From positions 1 to 64,000 of the forward strand of contig JAKOVQ010000047.1 in NCBI GenBank assembly GCA_029781975.1: a DNA stretch of 64,000 bases. Direction: 5' to 3'. This stretch comes from Acidobacteriota bacterium. Its GTDB lineage: Bacteria; Acidobacteriota; Thermoanaerobaculia; UBA5066. Below, in pieces: positions 1 to 9,217 of this stretch; position 1 is the stretch's first letter; each line of letters starts with the position of its first letter. The notes beneath the pieces were generated by a model that made no database searches, had not been told where the DNA came from, and worked only from the letters and a program-made list of their open reading frames with translations. The translations under genes were made by a program, and so were the position numbers.

Positions 1-132
1 CCTCGGCCCGAGCCTTCGGAGGGCCTCGTCGGCGACCTTCTTGACGAGGCGAATCGGGTGATCCCGGGGAACAAGGTCCTCGGGGCTCACCGTGACGATC
101 AAATCGGGCTGCCTTTCGATGTCTCCGCGCAC
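1..132 (-). CDS. IS1182-family transposase, amino-terminal fragment (runs off the window)
   Basis: The 44 codons visible on the minus strand begin VRGDIERQPDL and continue through a VSPEDLVPRDHPIR segment. This is the characteristic amino-terminal pattern of IS1182/IS5-like transposases, in which a short RGxxERQ start precedes a conserved P-x-DHP-(I/L)-R motif. GTG at 130-132 is taken as the start; the frame remains open upstream to a TGA at 187-189, so a slightly earlier start is possible. The catalytic DDE domain lies outside the window, so whether the element is intact cannot be judged. The frame is uninterrupted in the visible part, which suggests a fairly recent insertion. Confidence 0.75.
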   Translation of the reverse strand, partial: MRGDIERQPDLIVTVSPEDLVPRDHPIRLVKKVADEALRRLGPR

Positions 133-199
133 GCCAGCAAGGTCGCCTGCAGTGGCCGTTCTGTCAACGGTCTCACGCCGATCTTTTCAGCAGCCTGCT
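1..199 (-). mobile_element. End of an IS1182-type insertion sequence, cut by the window edge
   Basis: The minus strand here encodes the amino terminus of an IS1182-type transposase running off the left edge. About 50 bp upstream of it, at roughly 182-199, is a short sequence (minus strand AGGCTGCTGAAAAG) that I take as the terminal inverted repeat. That identification is from memory of related elements and the other end is not visible. The next gene, the JAB-E1 fusion, starts about 25 bp beyond this presumed end, so the element sits right against its 5' side. The exact boundary and any target duplication cannot be fixed from one end. Confidence 0.65.
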
Positions 200-223
200 A
201 GTGCAGCCGTGACGACACCCCCC

Positions 224-1591
224 ATGAGCCTCACCCTCCGAGACGAGCACCTCAAAGAGCTCGGGCGGCTTCTGTTCAGCCGCTCGGACGTCGAGTCAGC
301 GGCGTACGTGGTCTGCGGGAGGAGCGTCGGAGGTGGCCATGAGCGCCTGCTCTCCCGAGCCGTGCTTCCCGTCGAGGCCCCCCACTACCTCCGCCGGGAG
401 GCCGATCGCCTCTCTATCTCGGACGAGTCGTTCGTCCCCATCGTGAAGCGCGTCCGCGCCGAGGGCGGAGCGCTCGTCCTCGCCCATAGCCACCCGGAGG
501 GGCCGCTCGCGTTCTCCGCCCAGGACGACGCCGAGGAGGAGCGGTTCTTCAGGGCGGTGCAGCGTCGCGCGCCGGGTGGCTCCCACGGCAGCCTCGTGCT
601 GACTGCCCCGGACACCCTCGTCGGTCGCCTGTGGGGGCCTGACGGCCGCCCGACGCCGCTCGAACGAGTCACGGTCGTCGGCGAACGCCTCCGGCTCCTT
701 GCAGGTGACCACCGAGGGGTGTCGCCCATCTTTGACCGCCAGGTCCGCGCCTTCGGTCCGGACGTCCAACGGGTGCTCGAGCAACTCGTCATCGGCGTCG
801 TCGGGGTGGGTGGGACAGGCTCAGCAGTGTTCGAGCAGCTCCTCCGGCTCGGGGTCGGGCACATCCTCGTCATCGACGACGACCGCTTCGACCCGACGAA
901 CGTGAACCGCGTCCACGGCTCGCGCCTGAGCGACGTCGGCCTCCCGAAGGTCGATATCGCAGAGCGCACCGCCAGAGAAGTCGGCCTCCCCGGTCGGGTC
1001 ACGGCGATCAACGGCAGTATCCTGGATGCCTCCGTGGCTCGTCAGCTTCGCCGCTGCGACGTCGTCTTCGGCTGCACGGATCGCCAGTTCCCCCGGCTCA
1101 TCCTCAGCCGGATCGCCACGCGCTACCTCACGCCGGTGATCGACGTCGGCGCACTCGTCGACTCCCAGGACGGGGCGATCCGGTCCCTGGCGGGGCGCGT
1201 CACGACGCTCATCCCTGGCGCGGCCTGTCTCCTCTGCCGCGGTCAGGTCACGCCGGAGGGCCTCCGGGCCGAGGCACTCGCGCCCGACGAGCGGCGACGG
1301 CTCGCGGCTGAGGGCTACGTGCGGGGGCTCGACGCTGCCGCTCCCGCGGTCGTCCCCTTCACGACCGCCGTCGCGTCTCTCGGAATCGCCGAGCTGCTCC
1401 AGCGGCTGACGGGCTTCATGGGCGCGCGGGGGAGTACCGAGACGCTCGTGCGCTTCGATCTCCCCAAGCTGGCGACGAACAAGGCAGCGTCGATTCCGAC
1501 GTGTGACTGCGCGGACGCGTCGACGTGGGGACGGGGCGACGAGGAGCCCTTCCTCGGTCTGACCTGGAGACCGGAAGCGTCGAAACCGTGA
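224..1591 (+). CDS. JAB metalloprotease - ThiF/E1-like activating enzyme fusion
   Basis: Two domains are visible in 455 residues. Residues about 20-130 form a JAB/Mov34 isopeptidase-like domain carrying the metal motif H88-S-H90-P, then S98 and D101 (HxH-x7-SxxD spacing). Residues about 180-350 form a ThiF/MoeB/E1 adenylation domain with the nucleotide loop GVGGTG (194-199), the acidic IDDD strand end (217-220), N228/R229 and a C335-x2-C338 pair. A second Cys pair (CDC) lies near the carboxyl end. In eukaryotes and bacteria E1 enzymes adenylate the carboxyl end of a ubiquitin-like protein and JAB peptidases trim or remove it. The frame stays open into the upstream IS, but homology begins at the ATG at 224, so earlier starts are rejected; GTG at 209 is a possible alternative. 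It overlaps the next gene by 4 nt. No Ubl or E2 gene is visible beside it. Confidence 0.85.
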   Translation: MSLTLRDEHLKELGRLLFSRSDVESAAYVVCGRSVGGGHERLLSRAVLPVEAPHYLRREADRLSISDESFVPIVKRVRAEGGALVLAHSHPEGPLAFSAQDDAEEERFFRAVQRRAPGGSHGSLVLTAPDTLVGRLWGPDGRPTPLERVTVVGERLRLLAGDHRGVSPIFDRQVRAFGPDVQRVLEQLVIGVVGVGGTGSAVFEQLLRLGVGHILVIDDDRFDPTNVNRVHGSRLSDVGLPKVDIAERTAREVGLPGRVTAINGSILDASVARQLRRCDVVFGCTDRQFPRLILSRIATRYLTPVIDVGALVDSQDGAIRSLAGRVTTLIPGAACLLCRGQVTPEGLRAEALAPDERRRLAAEGYVRGLDAAAPAVVPFTTAVASLGIAELLQRLTGFMGARGSTETLVRFDLPKLATNKAASIPTCDCADASTWGRGDEEPFLGLTWRPEASKP

Positions 1592-1950
1592 TTGAGCGCC
1601 TGTTACGCCTGCTCCGGCGTGCGCTCCCGCCGCGCGCCTCTGCGCTTCTCCGGCGACGGCGCTACCGGTCGGTGACGCACTGCGCGAGGGAGGCGCTGGC
1701 CGAGGCGGATCGACTCGTTCGGCGCGGGCACGTCGTGGTCCTGCTCAAAGGCACGCACCCGACCTGGCTCGTCGCGCTCTGCCCGTGTCGCTGCGGCGAA
1801 ATCCTGCGCGTGAACCTGATGCCAACGGCAGAGCCAGCGTGGCGTGTCACGGTCAGCGCCCGTGGTAGCACTACGGTTTGGCCGTCACTTATCGTCACGC
1901 CCTGCGGGAGTCACTTCTGGGTCACCGACGGCCGCGTGCGCTGGACGTAG
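1588..1950 (+). CDS. DUF6527-like small Cys-rich protein
   Basis: This 120-residue product starts at a GTG that overlaps the stop codon of the JAB-E1 gene (GTGA), implying translational coupling. The amino-terminal third is Arg/Leu-rich. The carboxyl part carries a LCPCRCGE knuckle (about residues 68-75), a conserved LMP-x-W-R-V stretch and a terminal C-x-SHFW motif. Together these match my recollection of the DUF6527 family, small proteins found next to bacterial E1/E2/JAB ubiquitin-like gene sets. The Cys pattern suggests zinc binding; the SHF motif could be catalytic, but that is inference. A start at the GTG at 1525, inside the JAB-E1 gene, is possible but lacks support. The assignment rests on motif memory only. 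Confidence 0.7.
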   Translation: MIERLLRLLRRALPPRASALLRRRRYRSVTHCAREALAEADRLVRRGHVVVLLKGTHPTWLVALCPCRCGEILRVNLMPTAEPAWRVTVSARGSTTVWPSLIVTPCGSHFWVTDGRVRWT

Positions 1951-2102: not shown

Positions 2103-3557
2103 TTACGGCTCAGTATCTAGCTTGGTCGCGAGGATCTCCGAACGCCCCAGCCAGTAGCACGCGAGCGGGGCCGGGATCTTTACCGCCATCGCCTCGACGT
2201 TCTTGGTCGGAAGGCGCACGAGCCCGAAGTCGTCGGAATCGCGCGTGATGACGTACCCCTCCGAGACCTTGCGCTCGTCACAGAAGGCGGTGAGGCCCGC
2301 GAGCTTGCGCGGTGTGACGTCGGCGCGGTGCTTCACCTCGAAGGGGACGAGCCGGCCGTTCACGTCGGCGATGATGTCGACCTCCTGCCCCTTCGGACCT
2401 CCCCGCCAGTAAGAGAAACCAATGCTCTGAGCGTAGTAGCGCGTGTAAACGTGCTTGAAGAACGCGGTCTCCACCGCAAGGCCGAGAGCAGCCGCGTCTT
2501 CGAGGAGCGCCTTGCCCCGCAGGAGAACGCTTGGAGCGATCGCCGGATCGGCGAGGTAGATCTTCTGCTTCCCGCGGAGGGTTTCCTTGCCGTAGCCGAA
2601 CGGCCGCAGGCGATAGATGAGGTGCGTGTGCTCGAGAAGTTCGATGAAGTTGTTCGCGGTCGGCTTCTTGACCTCGAGACTCCGGCAGAGTTCTTGGACG
2701 TCGAGGAGCCCCCCGTCGTGGAGGCAGAGGTAGAGAAACGTCTGCTCCAGCTCGAGGATGCGGCGCACACCGTAGAGGGCCGTCATGTCGCGCTTGAGTA
2801 CCTTGTCGACGATGTCCTCGCGGAGGAGCTTCTGCGCGAGCGAGATGCTTTCGATCTGCGCGATCTGCGGGAATCCTCCCCGGATCAGGTAGTCTTGGAA
2901 TGGTCCGACGAGATCGGCGGCGAGCGCGCCAACGCGCGTGAACTGCGCGGGGGTCCAGGAGAAGAGCTCCCGAAGCGAGGGCACATCCGGCAGCTTCGGC
3001 GTCGGGAGCTTCTTGATCTGGAGGAACTCGTAGAACGAAAGTGGCGCGAGCCGGACGGTGTGCCACCTTCCGGGACCGGATTCCTGCCCTTCCACGATGA
3101 GCGGAGTCGCCGAACCGGTCACGGCGATACGGCGTTTCGGTTCGAACTTCACCTGGTGTTTGATCCACGTCTGCCAGTCCTTGGCGTACTGGATCTCGTC
3201 CAGGAGGACGTATTCGACATCGCGCGCCGAAGGCTCGTACTCCTTCCAGAGCCGCATGAGACCGTCGAGCCCGATCAGCTTCAGGAGCGGGTGATCGAAC
3301 GTCGCGTAGAGGATGCTAGTGGCCGGCACTCCCTTCGCGAGCAGTTCTTCTATCGCCTGGAGGAGGATCGTGGTCTTACCGACCTGGCGAGCGCCGCTCA
3401 GGAGGAGCGCCCTCGGCGCGGGAGGCGCCGATAGCCACGACTCGACCTCGCGGAAGGCGGCGCGCCGCCAGCGAGGCAACTCCGGCACGCGGTTGCCGTC
3501 CCACCACGGGTTGAACTGCCGGAGGACTGCGATGAGTTCGGCGCGTGGGGCGATCAT
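2103..3557 (-). CDS. AAA ATPase with DUF4143 domain (copy 1)
   Basis: This 484-residue protein has an AAA_14-type P-loop domain: Walker A GARQVGKT (about 55-62), Walker B VLLDE followed by IQYAKDW (about 117-127) and a sensor-like VTGSA (146-150). The central and C-terminal part fits DUF4143, ending with an EVDII...PFEVK stretch that resembles a PD-(D/E)xK nuclease core. The amino end carries an FNPWW motif shared with the second copy at 7709-9217. The physiological role of this ATPase family is unsettled; it is common in accessory regions. The gene faces away from the ECF/kinase pair, with about 180 bp between start codons. The start is the ATG at 3555-3557, with no good Shine-Dalgarno sequence. 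Confidence 0.88.
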   Translation of the reverse strand: MIAPRAELIAVLRQFNPWWDGNRVPELPRWRRAAFREVESWLSAPPAPRALLLSGARQVGKTTILLQAIEELLAKGVPATSILYATFDHPLLKLIGLDGLMRLWKEYEPSARDVEYVLLDEIQYAKDWQTWIKHQVKFEPKRRIAVTGSATPLIVEGQESGPGRWHTVRLAPLSFYEFLQIKKLPTPKLPDVPSLRELFSWTPAQFTRVGALAADLVGPFQDYLIRGGFPQIAQIESISLAQKLLREDIVDKVLKRDMTALYGVRRILELEQTFLYLCLHDGGLLDVQELCRSLEVKKPTANNFIELLEHTHLIYRLRPFGYGKETLRGKQKIYLADPAIAPSVLLRGKALLEDAAALGLAVETAFFKHVYTRYYAQSIGFSYWRGGPKGQEVDIIADVNGRLVPFEVKHRADVTPRKLAGLTAFCDERKVSEGYVITRDSDDFGLVRLPTKNVEAMAVKIPAPLACYWLGRSEILATKLDTEP

Positions 3558-3740: not shown

Positions 3741-4316
3741 ATGGGCGTCGGCCCGGTCGCCCCACAGCAGCGTGTGACTGAACTGCTCCGGCGGTGGAGT
3801 AGCGGCGACGAGACCGCCTTCGAGGAGGCGGTCTCCCTTGTCTACGAGGACCTCTACCGGATCGCCCGACGGAAGATGGTCAACGAACGCCCCGGACACA
3901 CCCTCCAGCCGACCGCCCTCGTGAACGAGGCCATCGCCCAGATGATGGGCTGGGACGGCTACACCTTCGCCGACCGCGGCCACTTCCTCCGGGCCGCATG
4001 CCTCGCGATGCGACGGGTCCTCACAGATTACGCCCGCAAGCGGGCGCAGGCGGTCCAGGCAGAGGTCTCGCTCGCCGAGGGCGATGTCGAAGTCCCCGGG
4101 GAGACGGGAGCCTCCGTCGTCTCCGCAGCCGCGCTGAGCCAGGCGCTCGACCGGCTCGCCGCCGAGGACCCGAAGACCGCTGAAGTCGCGACGCTACGGC
4201 TGTTTGCAGACCTCACCCTCCAGCAGATCGCCGAGGTCACCGAAGCGACCGTCCCGACCGTCCACAGGAAGTGGGTCTACGCCAAGGCGTTCCTTCGAAA
4301 GGAGCTCTCCTCGTGA
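3741..4316 (+). CDS. ECF-type RNA polymerase sigma factor
   Basis: The 191-residue protein matches the ECF subgroup common in Acidobacteria and Planctomycetes (TIGR02999-like). Region 2 (about 5-75) includes the LYRIARRKM and GHTLQPTALVNEA segments. Region 4 is a carboxyl-terminal helix-turn-helix (LTLQQIAEVTEATVPTVHRK, about residues 155-174). No separate anti-sigma gene is present; instead the gene overlaps a Ser/Thr kinase gene by 4 nt (GTGA), an arrangement in which the kinase may control the sigma factor. The start is the ATG at 3741 with a GGAGG about 14 nt upstream, which is slightly far. It probably directs transcription of a small local or envelope-related regulon; targets cannot be read from this sequence. 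Confidence 0.93.
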   Translation: MGVGPVAPQQRVTELLRRWSSGDETAFEEAVSLVYEDLYRIARRKMVNERPGHTLQPTALVNEAIAQMMGWDGYTFADRGHFLRAACLAMRRVLTDYARKRAQAVQAEVSLAEGDVEVPGETGASVVSAAALSQALDRLAAEDPKTAEVATLRLFADLTLQQIAEVTEATVPTVHRKWVYAKAFLRKELSS

Positions 4317-6982
4317 CCGACGCCCGCCTCTTGAAAAAGCAGGAGCTCCTGGCTTCGCTGGCTCTCGCGCCGACCGAGGACCGACCCCGACTCCTTGCCG
4401 AGAACTGCTGTGACGATCTAGGTCTCCGGGCCGAAGTAGAGGCCCTACTCCCCTACCTCGGAGCCCCGACGCCATCCCCAGCAGGAGACCTCGAGGTTGC
4501 CCTCGAGGAGAAACTCGCCGAAAGGTTCGTCGGAAAGGCCTTCGGGCCCTACACCGTCCAGCGGCTCCTCGGCAGAGGCGGGTTCTCCCGCGTGTTCCTG
4601 GCGACCCGGTCGTTCGAGGGGCAGGAGCGGACCTACGCCATAAAGGTGCCTCTCTGGGGCTCCTTCGCGGAGGAGGTAGCGCGCTACCGCCTCGAGATCG
4701 CCGTCCTGAGTCAGCTCCGGCACCCGAACATCGCGGGCCTGGTCGACGTGGTTCCTGGCCCGGACGACCGGCCGCTCCTCGTCATGGAATACGTGGAGGG
4801 CGCCAAGCCGATCACGCTCGCCGCCGCGGAGGCGGGCCTCCTGACCCGGCGAAGGATCGAGCTCTTCCTTAAGGTCCTCTCGGCGCTTAGCGCCGCGCAC
4901 GAGCGGGGCGTCATCCACTGCGACCTCTCGGCTGGGAACGTCGTGCTGCGGGCGGACGGCGAGCCGGTCATCATCGACTTCGGCATCGCGAAGGTCTCGT
5001 GGGAGCGCTCCGGCACCGTCACGGTCGGCCCCCGGCCGCTCACGTACGAGTACGCCAGCCCCGAGCAGTACCGCGGAGAGGCCCTCACCGTCCGCACCGA
5101 CATCTACTCCGCAGGCGTCCTTCTCTACGAACTCCTTGCTGGTGCCCTGCCCTACGACGTCGATCGGAAGGACACCGAGGCGTGCCGGCGGGCGGTCTGC
5201 GACGTGCCGGCCGAGCGTGCGAGCCAGCGGGCCCTTCGGTCTTCGGGACCCGCCCCAGGGCCGGCCCGGCGCGTCGCGAAGCAACTCCGCGGGGACCTCG
5301 ACGCGATTCTGGGCAAGGCGCTCGAGAAAGACCCCGCCCGTCGATACGAGTCCGCGAATTCCTTTGCAAAAGACCTCCGGGCCCATCTGGAGCTCCGCCC
5401 CGTCGTGGCGAAGGCGCCGGGCGGCTTCGAGCGCCCCTGGCGTTGGGCGAGGCGCCATCCGGCGATCTCGGCGACGGCGGCTCTGGCGGTCATCCTCTCC
5501 ATCGGCTTCGGCACCTTCCACGTCGTCCGCCTCGAGCGGGAACAAGCGCGTGCCCGGAAAATCGCGGCGGCGTTTCGCGACGTCCTGCGGGGATTCGACC
5601 CGGCGGCTGTGGCGAAGAATCCGGTGACCGTGCGCGACCTGCTGGATCAGGCCGCAGCAAAGGCGGAAGACCAGCTGAAGGACGAGCCGCTCGTCCGCGG
5701 CGCGGTCCTCGAGACTCTCGGGACGACGTACTCGTCGCTCGGGGACCTCGATCGAGCCGAGAAGCTCCTCCGCGAAGCGGTCGCTCTGCGGAGGGGCGGG
5801 TCGCTCGCCGAGCGGGCGGAAAGCCTCATAGCACTTGGTGCGACCCTCCAGCGGCGGGGGCAGCTCAAGGAAGCGGAGCCGGTTCTCCGGGAGGCTCTGA
5901 CGCTGCGGATCAAGGACCGGGGGGAGTTCGACAAGGCGGTGGCCGAGTGCATGACGACACTCGCCATCGTCCTGAAAGACCAGGGGAACACGCGGGAGGC
6001 GATCTCGCTCATCGAGCGCTCGCTCGTGATCGAAGAGAAGGTCGCCCCGGGGAGCGACGCGGTGCTCGTGTCGCGTAACGAGCTCGCGAACATCCTCATC
6101 GAATCGACGAGCGACTACCAGAAGGCCATCGCTCTCCACGCCCAGAACCTGGTCGACCTGCGGAAGTACTACGGAGAGAACCATCCGTACGTCGCGCTGG
6201 CTCTGAACAACATCGCCCGGGCCGAGACGGACTCGGGCCGCTACGCGGACGCGGACCGACACTTCCAGGAGGCGCTCGCGCTCCAGCGGAAGATCTACGA
6301 CGGACCGCACCCCGAGACGGCGCTCACGCTGCACAACTACGGCTTCCTCCGCCTGGACGAGGGACGACTCGAGGAGGCCGAGGCGCTGACGCGCGAGGCG
6401 CTCGAAATGCGCCGGAGCGTCCTGCCGAAAGGGCACTCGGACCTCGCGGTGAGCCTCAACAACCTCGGCCTAATCGTGAAACGCCGCGGGCACCTCGACG
6501 AGGCCGAGGCGTGCTACCGCGAGTCACTCGAGATCACCCGGGCGGCGGACGGCGAGGACAGCCTGGAGATTCCCGTCACGCTCATGAACCTCGGCGGGAT
6601 CTACCGCGACAAAGGCGAGTTCGCGAAGGCGGAACCTCTCCTCGAGGACGCCCTCGCCCGGGACAGGAAATTCTTCCTCTCCCCGAACGTGGCCCTCGTG
6701 CGTGACATGACCTCACTCGCCCAGACAAAGACAGGGCTCAAGAAGTACTCCGAGGCGGAGGCGCTCCTGAAGGAGGCGACCGCCGCCCTCGGGAAGACCG
6801 GCGTGCCGCCGGACCACCGGGCGTACGCGGACGTGCAGGACGCCTACGCCGCGGTGCTTCTCAAGACCGGTCGCGTGGACGAAGCCCGGTCGGTCATCGA
6901 GACGGCGCTCCGGACCTTCGCGGCCAAGCCCGCCATCCGCGCCGGGTTCGAGAAGCTCCATGCCTCCCTCCCGAGCCAATAG
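4313..6982 (+). CDS. Membrane Ser/Thr protein kinase with TPR extracytoplasmic/sensor region
   Basis: The 889-residue protein has a kinase domain with glycine loop GRGGFS (87-92), catalytic AIK lysine (111), catalytic loop HCDLSAGN (202-209), DFG (222-224) and a SPE motif (249-251). The residue before the catalytic Asp is Cys, so it is a non-RD kinase. A single membrane span follows at about 384-404, then roughly ten TPR repeats fill 430-880, including the NNLG pattern typical of kinesin-light-chain-type TPRs. The GTG at 4313 overlaps the sigma stop codon and has GGAG 8 nt upstream. An earlier GTG at 4271 lies inside the sigma gene and is less likely. Context suggests it phosphorylates or senses for the coupled ECF factor. 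Confidence 0.92.
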   Translation: MTDARLLKKQELLASLALAPTEDRPRLLAENCCDDLGLRAEVEALLPYLGAPTPSPAGDLEVALEEKLAERFVGKAFGPYTVQRLLGRGGFSRVFLATRSFEGQERTYAIKVPLWGSFAEEVARYRLEIAVLSQLRHPNIAGLVDVVPGPDDRPLLVMEYVEGAKPITLAAAEAGLLTRRRIELFLKVLSALSAAHERGVIHCDLSAGNVVLRADGEPVIIDFGIAKVSWERSGTVTVGPRPLTYEYASPEQYRGEALTVRTDIYSAGVLLYELLAGALPYDVDRKDTEACRRAVCDVPAERASQRALRSSGPAPGPARRVAKQLRGDLDAILGKALEKDPARRYESANSFAKDLRAHLELRPVVAKAPGGFERPWRWARRHPAISATAALAVILSIGFGTFHVVRLEREQARARKIAAAFRDVLRGFDPAAVAKNPVTVRDLLDQAAAKAEDQLKDEPLVRGAVLETLGTTYSSLGDLDRAEKLLREAVALRRGGSLAERAESLIALGATLQRRGQLKEAEPVLREALTLRIKDRGEFDKAVAECMTTLAIVLKDQGNTREAISLIERSLVIEEKVAPGSDAVLVSRNELANILIESTSDYQKAIALHAQNLVDLRKYYGENHPYVALALNNIARAETDSGRYADADRHFQEALALQRKIYDGPHPETALTLHNYGFLRLDEGRLEEAEALTREALEMRRSVLPKGHSDLAVSLNNLGLIVKRRGHLDEAEACYRESLEITRAADGEDSLEIPVTLMNLGGIYRDKGEFAKAEPLLEDALARDRKFFLSPNVALVRDMTSLAQTKTGLKKYSEAEALLKEATAALGKTGVPPDHRAYADVQDAYAAVLLKTGRVDEARSVIETALRTFAAKPAIRAGFEKLHASLPSQ

Positions 6983-7708: not shown

Positions 7709-9217
7709 ATGGCATTCGAACTCGATCGCTCCCAGATCCTCAACGTCCTCCGCGGCTTCAACCCGTGGTGGGCGGGGCTGCCCATGAGCGTCCCCACGTT
7801 TCGCCGGCTCGCGTTCGACCAGTGCGTCCGGCTCCTGGAGGACCCGAAGTTCAAGCGGGCGATTCTCCTCAGCGGTCCTCGACGGGTGGGAAAGACAACC
7901 GTTCTAAAGCAGGTCGCGGAGTTGCTGCTCGCGGGAGGAGCTGAACCCGTCAGCGTGGTCTACATCAGCCTGGACCACCCTCTCCTCAAGCTCGCCAGCC
8001 TCACCGACCTGCTTCGGATCTACCGTGAGGACATCTTCGCCGAGGGAAGGCCCGCGGTCCTCTTGCTCGACGAGGTTCAGTACGCGGAGGACTGGGAGCT
8101 CCACGTGAAAACCCTCGTCGACCACCACCCCGAGTACCGGATTCTCGCGACCGGCTCCGCGGCGGTCGCGACGAAGCGCAAGCAGGCCGAGAGCGGCGTC
8201 GGCCGCTGGATCACCGTCCCGATCCCGACGCTGTCCTTCTACGAGTACCTCCGGATCCGTGAAGTAGGGATCCCGAAACTGCTCGACGAGCTGAAGCTCC
8301 AGGACCTCTTCACGTCCGCGCCCAGCCTCTTCGGTGGCATCTCCCAGGCAGCGCGTCCCCTCCTCCCCGAGTTTCGCCGGTACCTGCTCGTCGGCGGCTT
8401 CCCGGAAACGGCGCAGCAGGCGAGCGTCGAGATCGCCCAGCAGATCCTCCGAGAGGACGTCGTCGAACGCGTCCTTCGCAAGGACCTCGTCGCCCTCTAC
8501 GCCGTGCGCTCAGTCCGTGAATTCGAGCAGCTCTTCATCTACCTCTGCCTCCACACAGGGGGCATCTTCGCTGTCAAGACGGTGGCCACTGCGCTCGGCG
8601 TCGCGGCCCCCACCGTCGAGAATCACCTGGAGGTCCTCGAGCAGGCCCATCTCATCTACCGACTTCCTCCCATCGCGATCTCCGGGAAGAAGATCCTGAA
8701 GGCGAAGGACAAGATCTACATCGCCGATGCCGCTCTCCGGAACGCCGTACTCCTGAAGGGTGATCAGATTCTCGACGATCCCGCCGAGATGGGCCTCGTC
8801 GCCGAGACGACGGTCCTGCGTCACGTCTTCGCCTTCTACTACCAGGACACCCCGCGCGTCTCCTACTGGCTCGCGCCCGCGGCGACGGGTGGCAAGCGCG
8901 GCCGGCCGAAGGCAGGCGAGGAGCGCGGCGACGAGAAGCTCCTCGAGGTCGACATCGTGGTCCAGAGCCCGTCGTACACCATCCCGTTCGAGGTGAAGTA
9001 CCGCGATACGGCCACACTTCATGCCACGTCCGGCCTCGTCGCCTTCTGCCGCGAGGAGAAGCTGGAGCGGGCCTACTTCGTGACGAAGCGGAACGAGGAC
9101 TTCGGCGTCTCCACGTTCCCGGACCACCGGACGAAGTACCTCCGCATCCCGGCGCACATCCTGACCTGCCTGCTCGGGAGGGCGGAGCGGATCCAGTGGC
9201 GAGGGAAGGTGGGGTGA
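7709..9217 (+). CDS. AAA ATPase with DUF4143 domain (copy 2)
   Basis: This 502-residue paralogue of the gene at 2103-3557 shares the amino-terminal FNPWW motif. It has Walker A GPRRVGKT (about 56-63), Walker B LLLDE-VQYAEDW (about 115-126) and an ATGSA sensor. The DUF4143 part includes an REDVVERVLRKDLVALY segment closely matching copy 1 (REDIVDKVLKRDMTALY). It again ends with an EVDIVV...PFEVKYR nuclease-like stretch. Copy 2 has a Lys/Arg/Gly-rich insertion just before that stretch (about residues 390-410) that copy 1 lacks. The two copies are too divergent to be a recent duplication. The ATG start follows an AT-rich promoter-like region. Confidence 0.88.
   Translation: MAFELDRSQILNVLRGFNPWWAGLPMSVPTFRRLAFDQCVRLLEDPKFKRAILLSGPRRVGKTTVLKQVAELLLAGGAEPVSVVYISLDHPLLKLASLTDLLRIYREDIFAEGRPAVLLLDEVQYAEDWELHVKTLVDHHPEYRILATGSAAVATKRKQAESGVGRWITVPIPTLSFYEYLRIREVGIPKLLDELKLQDLFTSAPSLFGGISQAARPLLPEFRRYLLVGGFPETAQQASVEIAQQILREDVVERVLRKDLVALYAVRSVREFEQLFIYLCLHTGGIFAVKTVATALGVAAPTVENHLEVLEQAHLIYRLPPIAISGKKILKAKDKIYIADAALRNAVLLKGDQILDDPAEMGLVAETTVLRHVFAFYYQDTPRVSYWLAPAATGGKRGRPKAGEERGDEKLLEVDIVVQSPSYTIPFEVKYRDTATLHATSGLVAFCREEKLERAYFVTKRNEDFGVSTFPDHRTKYLRIPAHILTCLLGRAERIQWRGKVG

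Follow-up and report, generated by a model that had tools for sequence, protein, structure and literature searches.

The window, which is the whole 64,000-nucleotide stretch of DNA analysed here, opens inside a mobile element and continues directly into two overlapping genes of a bacterial ubiquitin-like (Ubl) pathway (Table 1). It begins at base 1 of contig C42 of assembly G000, so that the contig itself begins within the insertion sequence (IS). A Pfam scan of the window's frames placed a Prok-JAB domain (PF14464, E=9.9e-6) at the N-terminal end of the frame 182-1591 and a ThiF domain (PF00899, E=1.2e-34) in the same frame. Both the JAMM metal motif (Glu, HSHP...S..D) and the E1 nucleotide-binding motif GVGGTGS of this JAB-E1 protein are intact. 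The product of the frame 1588-1950 scores well over the curated cut-off of the DUF6527 model and contains the cysteine/histidine motif C-x3-C-x36-C-x2-H. The two genes share the 4 nt GTGA (GTG at 1588-1590, TGA at 1589-1591). A first-pass annotation made from the sequence had read the pair as a JAB and E1 (ThiF) fusion overlapping a DUF6527 gene by 4 nt, and had named a profile search of the 120-residue product as the test of that assignment; the Pfam matches and the shared GTGA bear this out.

Table 1. Features at the 5' edge of the window
Feature	Position	Strand	Basis or content
End of IS5/IS1182-type insertion sequence	1..200	-	Three related insertions and Azospirillum plasmid transposase homologue
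Transposase N-terminus	1-186	-	Frame VRGDIERQPDLIVTVSPEDLVPRDHPIRLVKKVADEALRRLGPR, running to contig edge
IS terminal repeat CTAGCAGGCTGCTGAAAA	184-201	-	
E2 (Prok-E2_E) 3' remnant, GTG CAG CCG TGA (V Q P stop)	201..212	+	Alignment with L033
JAB-E1 fusion (BubCD-like)	209/224..1591	+	JAMM peptidase N-terminal, then ThiF/E1 adenylation domain
DUF6527 protein, 120 aa, putative metal-binding partner	1588..1950	+	PF20137 E=1.1e-17

Two lines of earlier work describe operons of this kind. Bub structures include Citrobacter BubB and BubCD (PDB 9ea4, 9ea5, 9eae, 9eav; Ye et al. 2026 and Gong et al. 2025, as cited in PMC13373217), and in a search of the PDB, the window JAB-E1 aligned with Citrobacter BubCD over residues 12-446 (9ea4, E=1.4e-43). 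The Citrobacter BubCD structures were its only full-length PDB matches, and the E2 protein of a close relative (G003) matched Citrobacter BubB (E 3e-9). The second description is the operon type 6e of Iyer, Burroughs and Aravind (2006), which comprises a polyUbl of one to three Ubl domains, an inactive E2/RWD-like protein, a JAB-E1 protein with the JAB domain fused N-terminally to E1, and a metal-binding protein Y (PMC1779556). The operons of the relatives have this same gene set and the same JAB-first fusion. The printed signature of protein Y, C-x(3)-C-x(35-38)-H-x(2)-C (PMC1779556), fits the window DUF6527 except in the last metal pair, which is C-x2-H rather than H-x2-C; given its position and motif, protein Y is probably DUF6527.

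The native order of the operon emerged from 80 related loci surveyed in GTDB genomes. In 79 of them the genes run Ubl, E2, JAB-E1, DUF6527, and in all 80 DUF6527 adjoins JAB-E1 directly downstream, in line with the earlier proposals that the two window genes belong together and that Ubl and E2 partners should be expected upstream. The closest genome with the gene, the Thermoanaerobaculia MAG G003, has a JAB-E1 79% identical to that of the window. In this comparison with a related genome, which the annotation had also called for, the operon proved intact (locus L033), with a Multi_ubiq Ubl gene (one Ubl domain), a Prok-E2_E E2 gene, JAB-E1 and then DUF6527. On a finished plasmid of Rhizobium phaseoli, pRphaR620c, the annotated series is HTH, ImmA/IrrE, DUF2188, multiubiquitin, E2/UBC, ThiF and DUF6527, and 4-nt overlaps flank ThiF on both sides, as with the window genes. 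In the alignment of the relatives' E2 proteins, no column has a cysteine in more than 23 of 80 rows; the lack of a conserved catalytic cysteine agrees with the inactive E2 fold of the type 6e description. Given the order in 79 of 80 loci and the type 6e description (PMC1779556), a JAB-first protein with a DUF6527 partner is therefore the rule, and the suggestion that either feature marks a variant has to be given up.

What sets the window apart is the IS. Three other insertions of this element, in G004 and G009 (same family; ~88% identical), match the window through CCTGCTA at position 200 and diverge from it beyond that point. Thus far, the earlier placement of an IS at the 5' edge stands, but its distance from JAB-E1, given as about 25 bp, is corrected to 8 or 23 bp. 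The native start of JAB-E1 is likely to be either GTG 209, which is proposed because it would overlap the old E2 stop, or ATG 224. The label IS1182-type is widened to IS5/IS1182-type. A homologous transposase on Azospirillum plasmids has DUF772 and DDE domains and scores first on IS5_4, over the cut-off, and second on IS1182, under it. The sequence CTAG is present at both ends of the IS, but it is short and palindromic and reads CTAA in one G009 copy, so that it is at most a candidate target duplication. Another candidate copy, a DDE_Tnp_1_6 hit at C37:48872, was set aside as a different element, being internal to its contig and having no DNA match to the window IS end.

From the IS end to the JAB-E1 start, the window reads V Q P stop, in frame with the end of the G003 E2 gene. 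In G003 that gene finishes ...L V G P stop, the TGA overlapping the JAB-E1 start codon GTG. The IS therefore lies in the last E2 codons, and only three codons and the stop are left of the E2 gene in the window. The remainder of the operon was sought in the whole assembly, a 5.37-Mb draft of 54 contigs that is 96.35% complete. No E2_E gene was found in the 5.37 Mb, whereas the same E2 search succeeded in 4 of 4 control genomes; likewise, no Multi_ubiq gene was found there, by a search that succeeded in both controls, G003 and G061. E2 and Ubl queries also gave weak tblastn matches (E 0.009 among 158 queries) within unrelated genes of the window, which were attributed to chance. The earlier statement that no Ubl or E2 is visible thus extends from the window to the assembly, but because the window starts at a contig edge, it is in part a contig-end effect.

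Elsewhere in the assembly, the IS terminal repeat is found just once, at the beginning of contig C30 (C30:1-201, L144), where it again lies 200 bp from a contig edge. C30 opens with NLIRIARLEPAAT-stop, and because this resembles the C-terminus of the Azospirillum transposase, AYNLIRLPKLLAAA, the segment is probably the opposite end of the IS that opens C42. No contig carries the full element; the window has an N-terminal transposase fragment and one end, and C30 its probable other end. The two contigs may lie next to each other in the genome. Past the IS end, C30 has a response-regulator gene and then a gene that, by its sequence, encodes a metal P-type ATPase; neither Ubl nor E2 is present in its first 14 kb. 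These unrelated genes beside the IS end favour a truncated remnant. If C30 and C42 flank a single copy of the IS, a deletion or rearrangement has removed Ubl and E2; if there are two copies whose other flanks are unbinned, the operon may only have been split.

Taken together, these results make it very probable that the locus is the 3' half of a Bub/type 6e operon, with an IS in the last codons of its E2 gene and with Ubl and E2 no longer adjacent. The earlier proposal that the IS separates or removes the partners is thereby strengthened, since the IS ends in the last E2 codons and neither gene is in the assembly. Of the alternatives it left standing, a remnant or split operon is the better supported and a variant is not. 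The features of Bub/type 6e operons that are present are the JAB-E1 fusion, its intact motifs and the adjacent DUF6527, while the adjacent E2 and Ubl genes, cut off by the IS, are missing; having no adjacent E2 gene, the locus is filed as a truncated rather than a complete Bub/type 6e operon. It is thus an interrupted copy of a known kind and no new variant. It extends Bub operons, in broken form, to one more Acidobacteriota (Thermoanaerobaculia-related) genome, and by itself adds little.

In this model, an IS5/IS1182-type element would have inserted into the last codons of the E2 gene. As judged from the structures of Bub proteins, from the JAMM and E1 motifs and from what was predicted in 2006, the E1 domain of the intact system would adenylate the C-terminus of the Ubl and, aided by the E2-like protein, pass it on; trimming or removal of the Ubl would fall to the fused JAB metallopeptidase. 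DUF6527 would be a small obligate partner, probably metal-binding and perhaps an adaptor. With no Ubl or E2 in the assembly to complete the cascade, most likely the copy in the window does not function or was broken recently. JAB-E1 (dN/dS 0.25 against G003) and DUF6527 are both intact, and their ratio of ~0.25 indicates purifying selection with no sign of decay; however, the selection so recorded mostly predates the IS insertion.

A simple insertion, in which Ubl and most of E2 survive across the IS on an unassembled or unbinned contig, is a sub-case of this explanation, differing only in whether the genes have been lost or the operon split. It is a serious contender that falls somewhat short of an even chance. 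Since the assembly is an incomplete draft and contig C42 stops within the IS, the genes could lie on an unbinned contig, which would make the operon a split and not a decapitated one. A contig that starts inside an IS is what a multi-copy repeat produces, and two G009 contigs also start within this IS, at one common internal position. Furthermore, the roughly three E2 codons on the window side are what a clean insertion leaves. However, E2 and Ubl are absent from a bin that is 96% complete, and the one further end of this IS type in the assembly borders the response-regulator and P-type ATPase genes of C30. A split operon might still function if a promoter in the IS drives JAB-E1 and DUF6527.

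A true two-gene variant, in which JAB-E1 plus DUF6527 act with neither Ubl nor E2 nearby and might serve as a stand-alone module for Ubl removal, would account for the intactness of both genes and the retention of DUF6527. It has a parallel in Pararobbsia silviterrae (L065:5812-7658), where JAB-E1 and DUF6527 likewise occur without Ubl and E2. Nevertheless, the E2 end beside the IS means that the two-gene state in the window is derived, the full set is kept in 79 of 80 relatives, and the Pararobbsia JAB-E1 is without the conserved N-terminus, a loss that looks like decay; this locus is read as a second, independent remnant. Such a variant is therefore improbable. The related idea that, once the IS had brought about the loss of Ubl and E2, JAB-E1 and DUF6527 persisted in this cell as a working module for deconjugation or sensing, with DUF6527 and the JAB acting on another Ubl, is likewise improbable. 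Finally, a ThiF/MoeB-type sulfur-carrier adenylyltransferase with a JAB domain, serving cofactor or siderophore biosynthesis, has a negligible chance. In its favour, the ThiF domain also scores on the ThiF and MoeB models, under their cut-offs; against it, the full-length BubCD match (1e-43) far outranks MoeB (1e-10), a sulfur-carrier partner is absent and the Multi_ubiq and E2_E neighbours are conserved.

Bub operons also share the logic of E1, E2 and JAB with the Ubl pathways of BIL (bacterial ISG15-like) and type II CBASS systems, but the E1 architecture of these differs from that of JAB-E1. No CD-NTase gene was seen beside the window E1, and the E1-E2 models of PADLOC 2023 match only the ThiF domain of the window protein. 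As for the biological role of Bub operons, many have DNA-damage regulators upstream, and no protection against phage has been shown for them (PMC13373217). Upstream of the Bub-like operon of G047 (L034:8092-9532) lie a STAS/GHKL and a STAS/winged-HTH gene, which resemble the regulators CapK and CapS, and L035 has an upstream HTH-peptidase pair resembling CapH and CapP.

DUF6527 itself is an obligate neighbour in the Bub pathway that is still uncharacterised. Its name did not occur in papers in the literature searched, and a search of the PDB with its sequence gave no match. A model built from 47 sequences reached pLDDT 89, and searches with it found no convincing solved fold: the best Foldseek match had E 0.69, and VIA gave at best Z 4.5, for a 49-residue match to SH2 domains, neither of which is usable.

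In seven loci (L058, L059, L060, L061, L065, L074 and L075), the DUF6527 gene is on the other strand and converges on JAB-E1, and so keeps its adjacency without co-transcription. That the adjacency holds in every locus of the survey, even when the gene is flipped, marks DUF6527 as an obligate part of the pathway. Five of the seven are neighbours on the JAB-E1 tree and the other two, from Paenibacillus, stand apart from them; the inversion may therefore have happened more than once. In Paracoccus luteus (L085:4520-4801), DUF6527 is represented by two frames with exactly one codon between them, which suggests an in-frame stop within the gene.

Further into the window, genes for an ECF sigma factor (3741-4316) and for a Ser/Thr kinase that has TPR repeats (4271-6982) stand between those of two AAA_14/DUF4143 ATPases of one family (2103-3557 on the minus strand and 7709-9217 on the plus strand).
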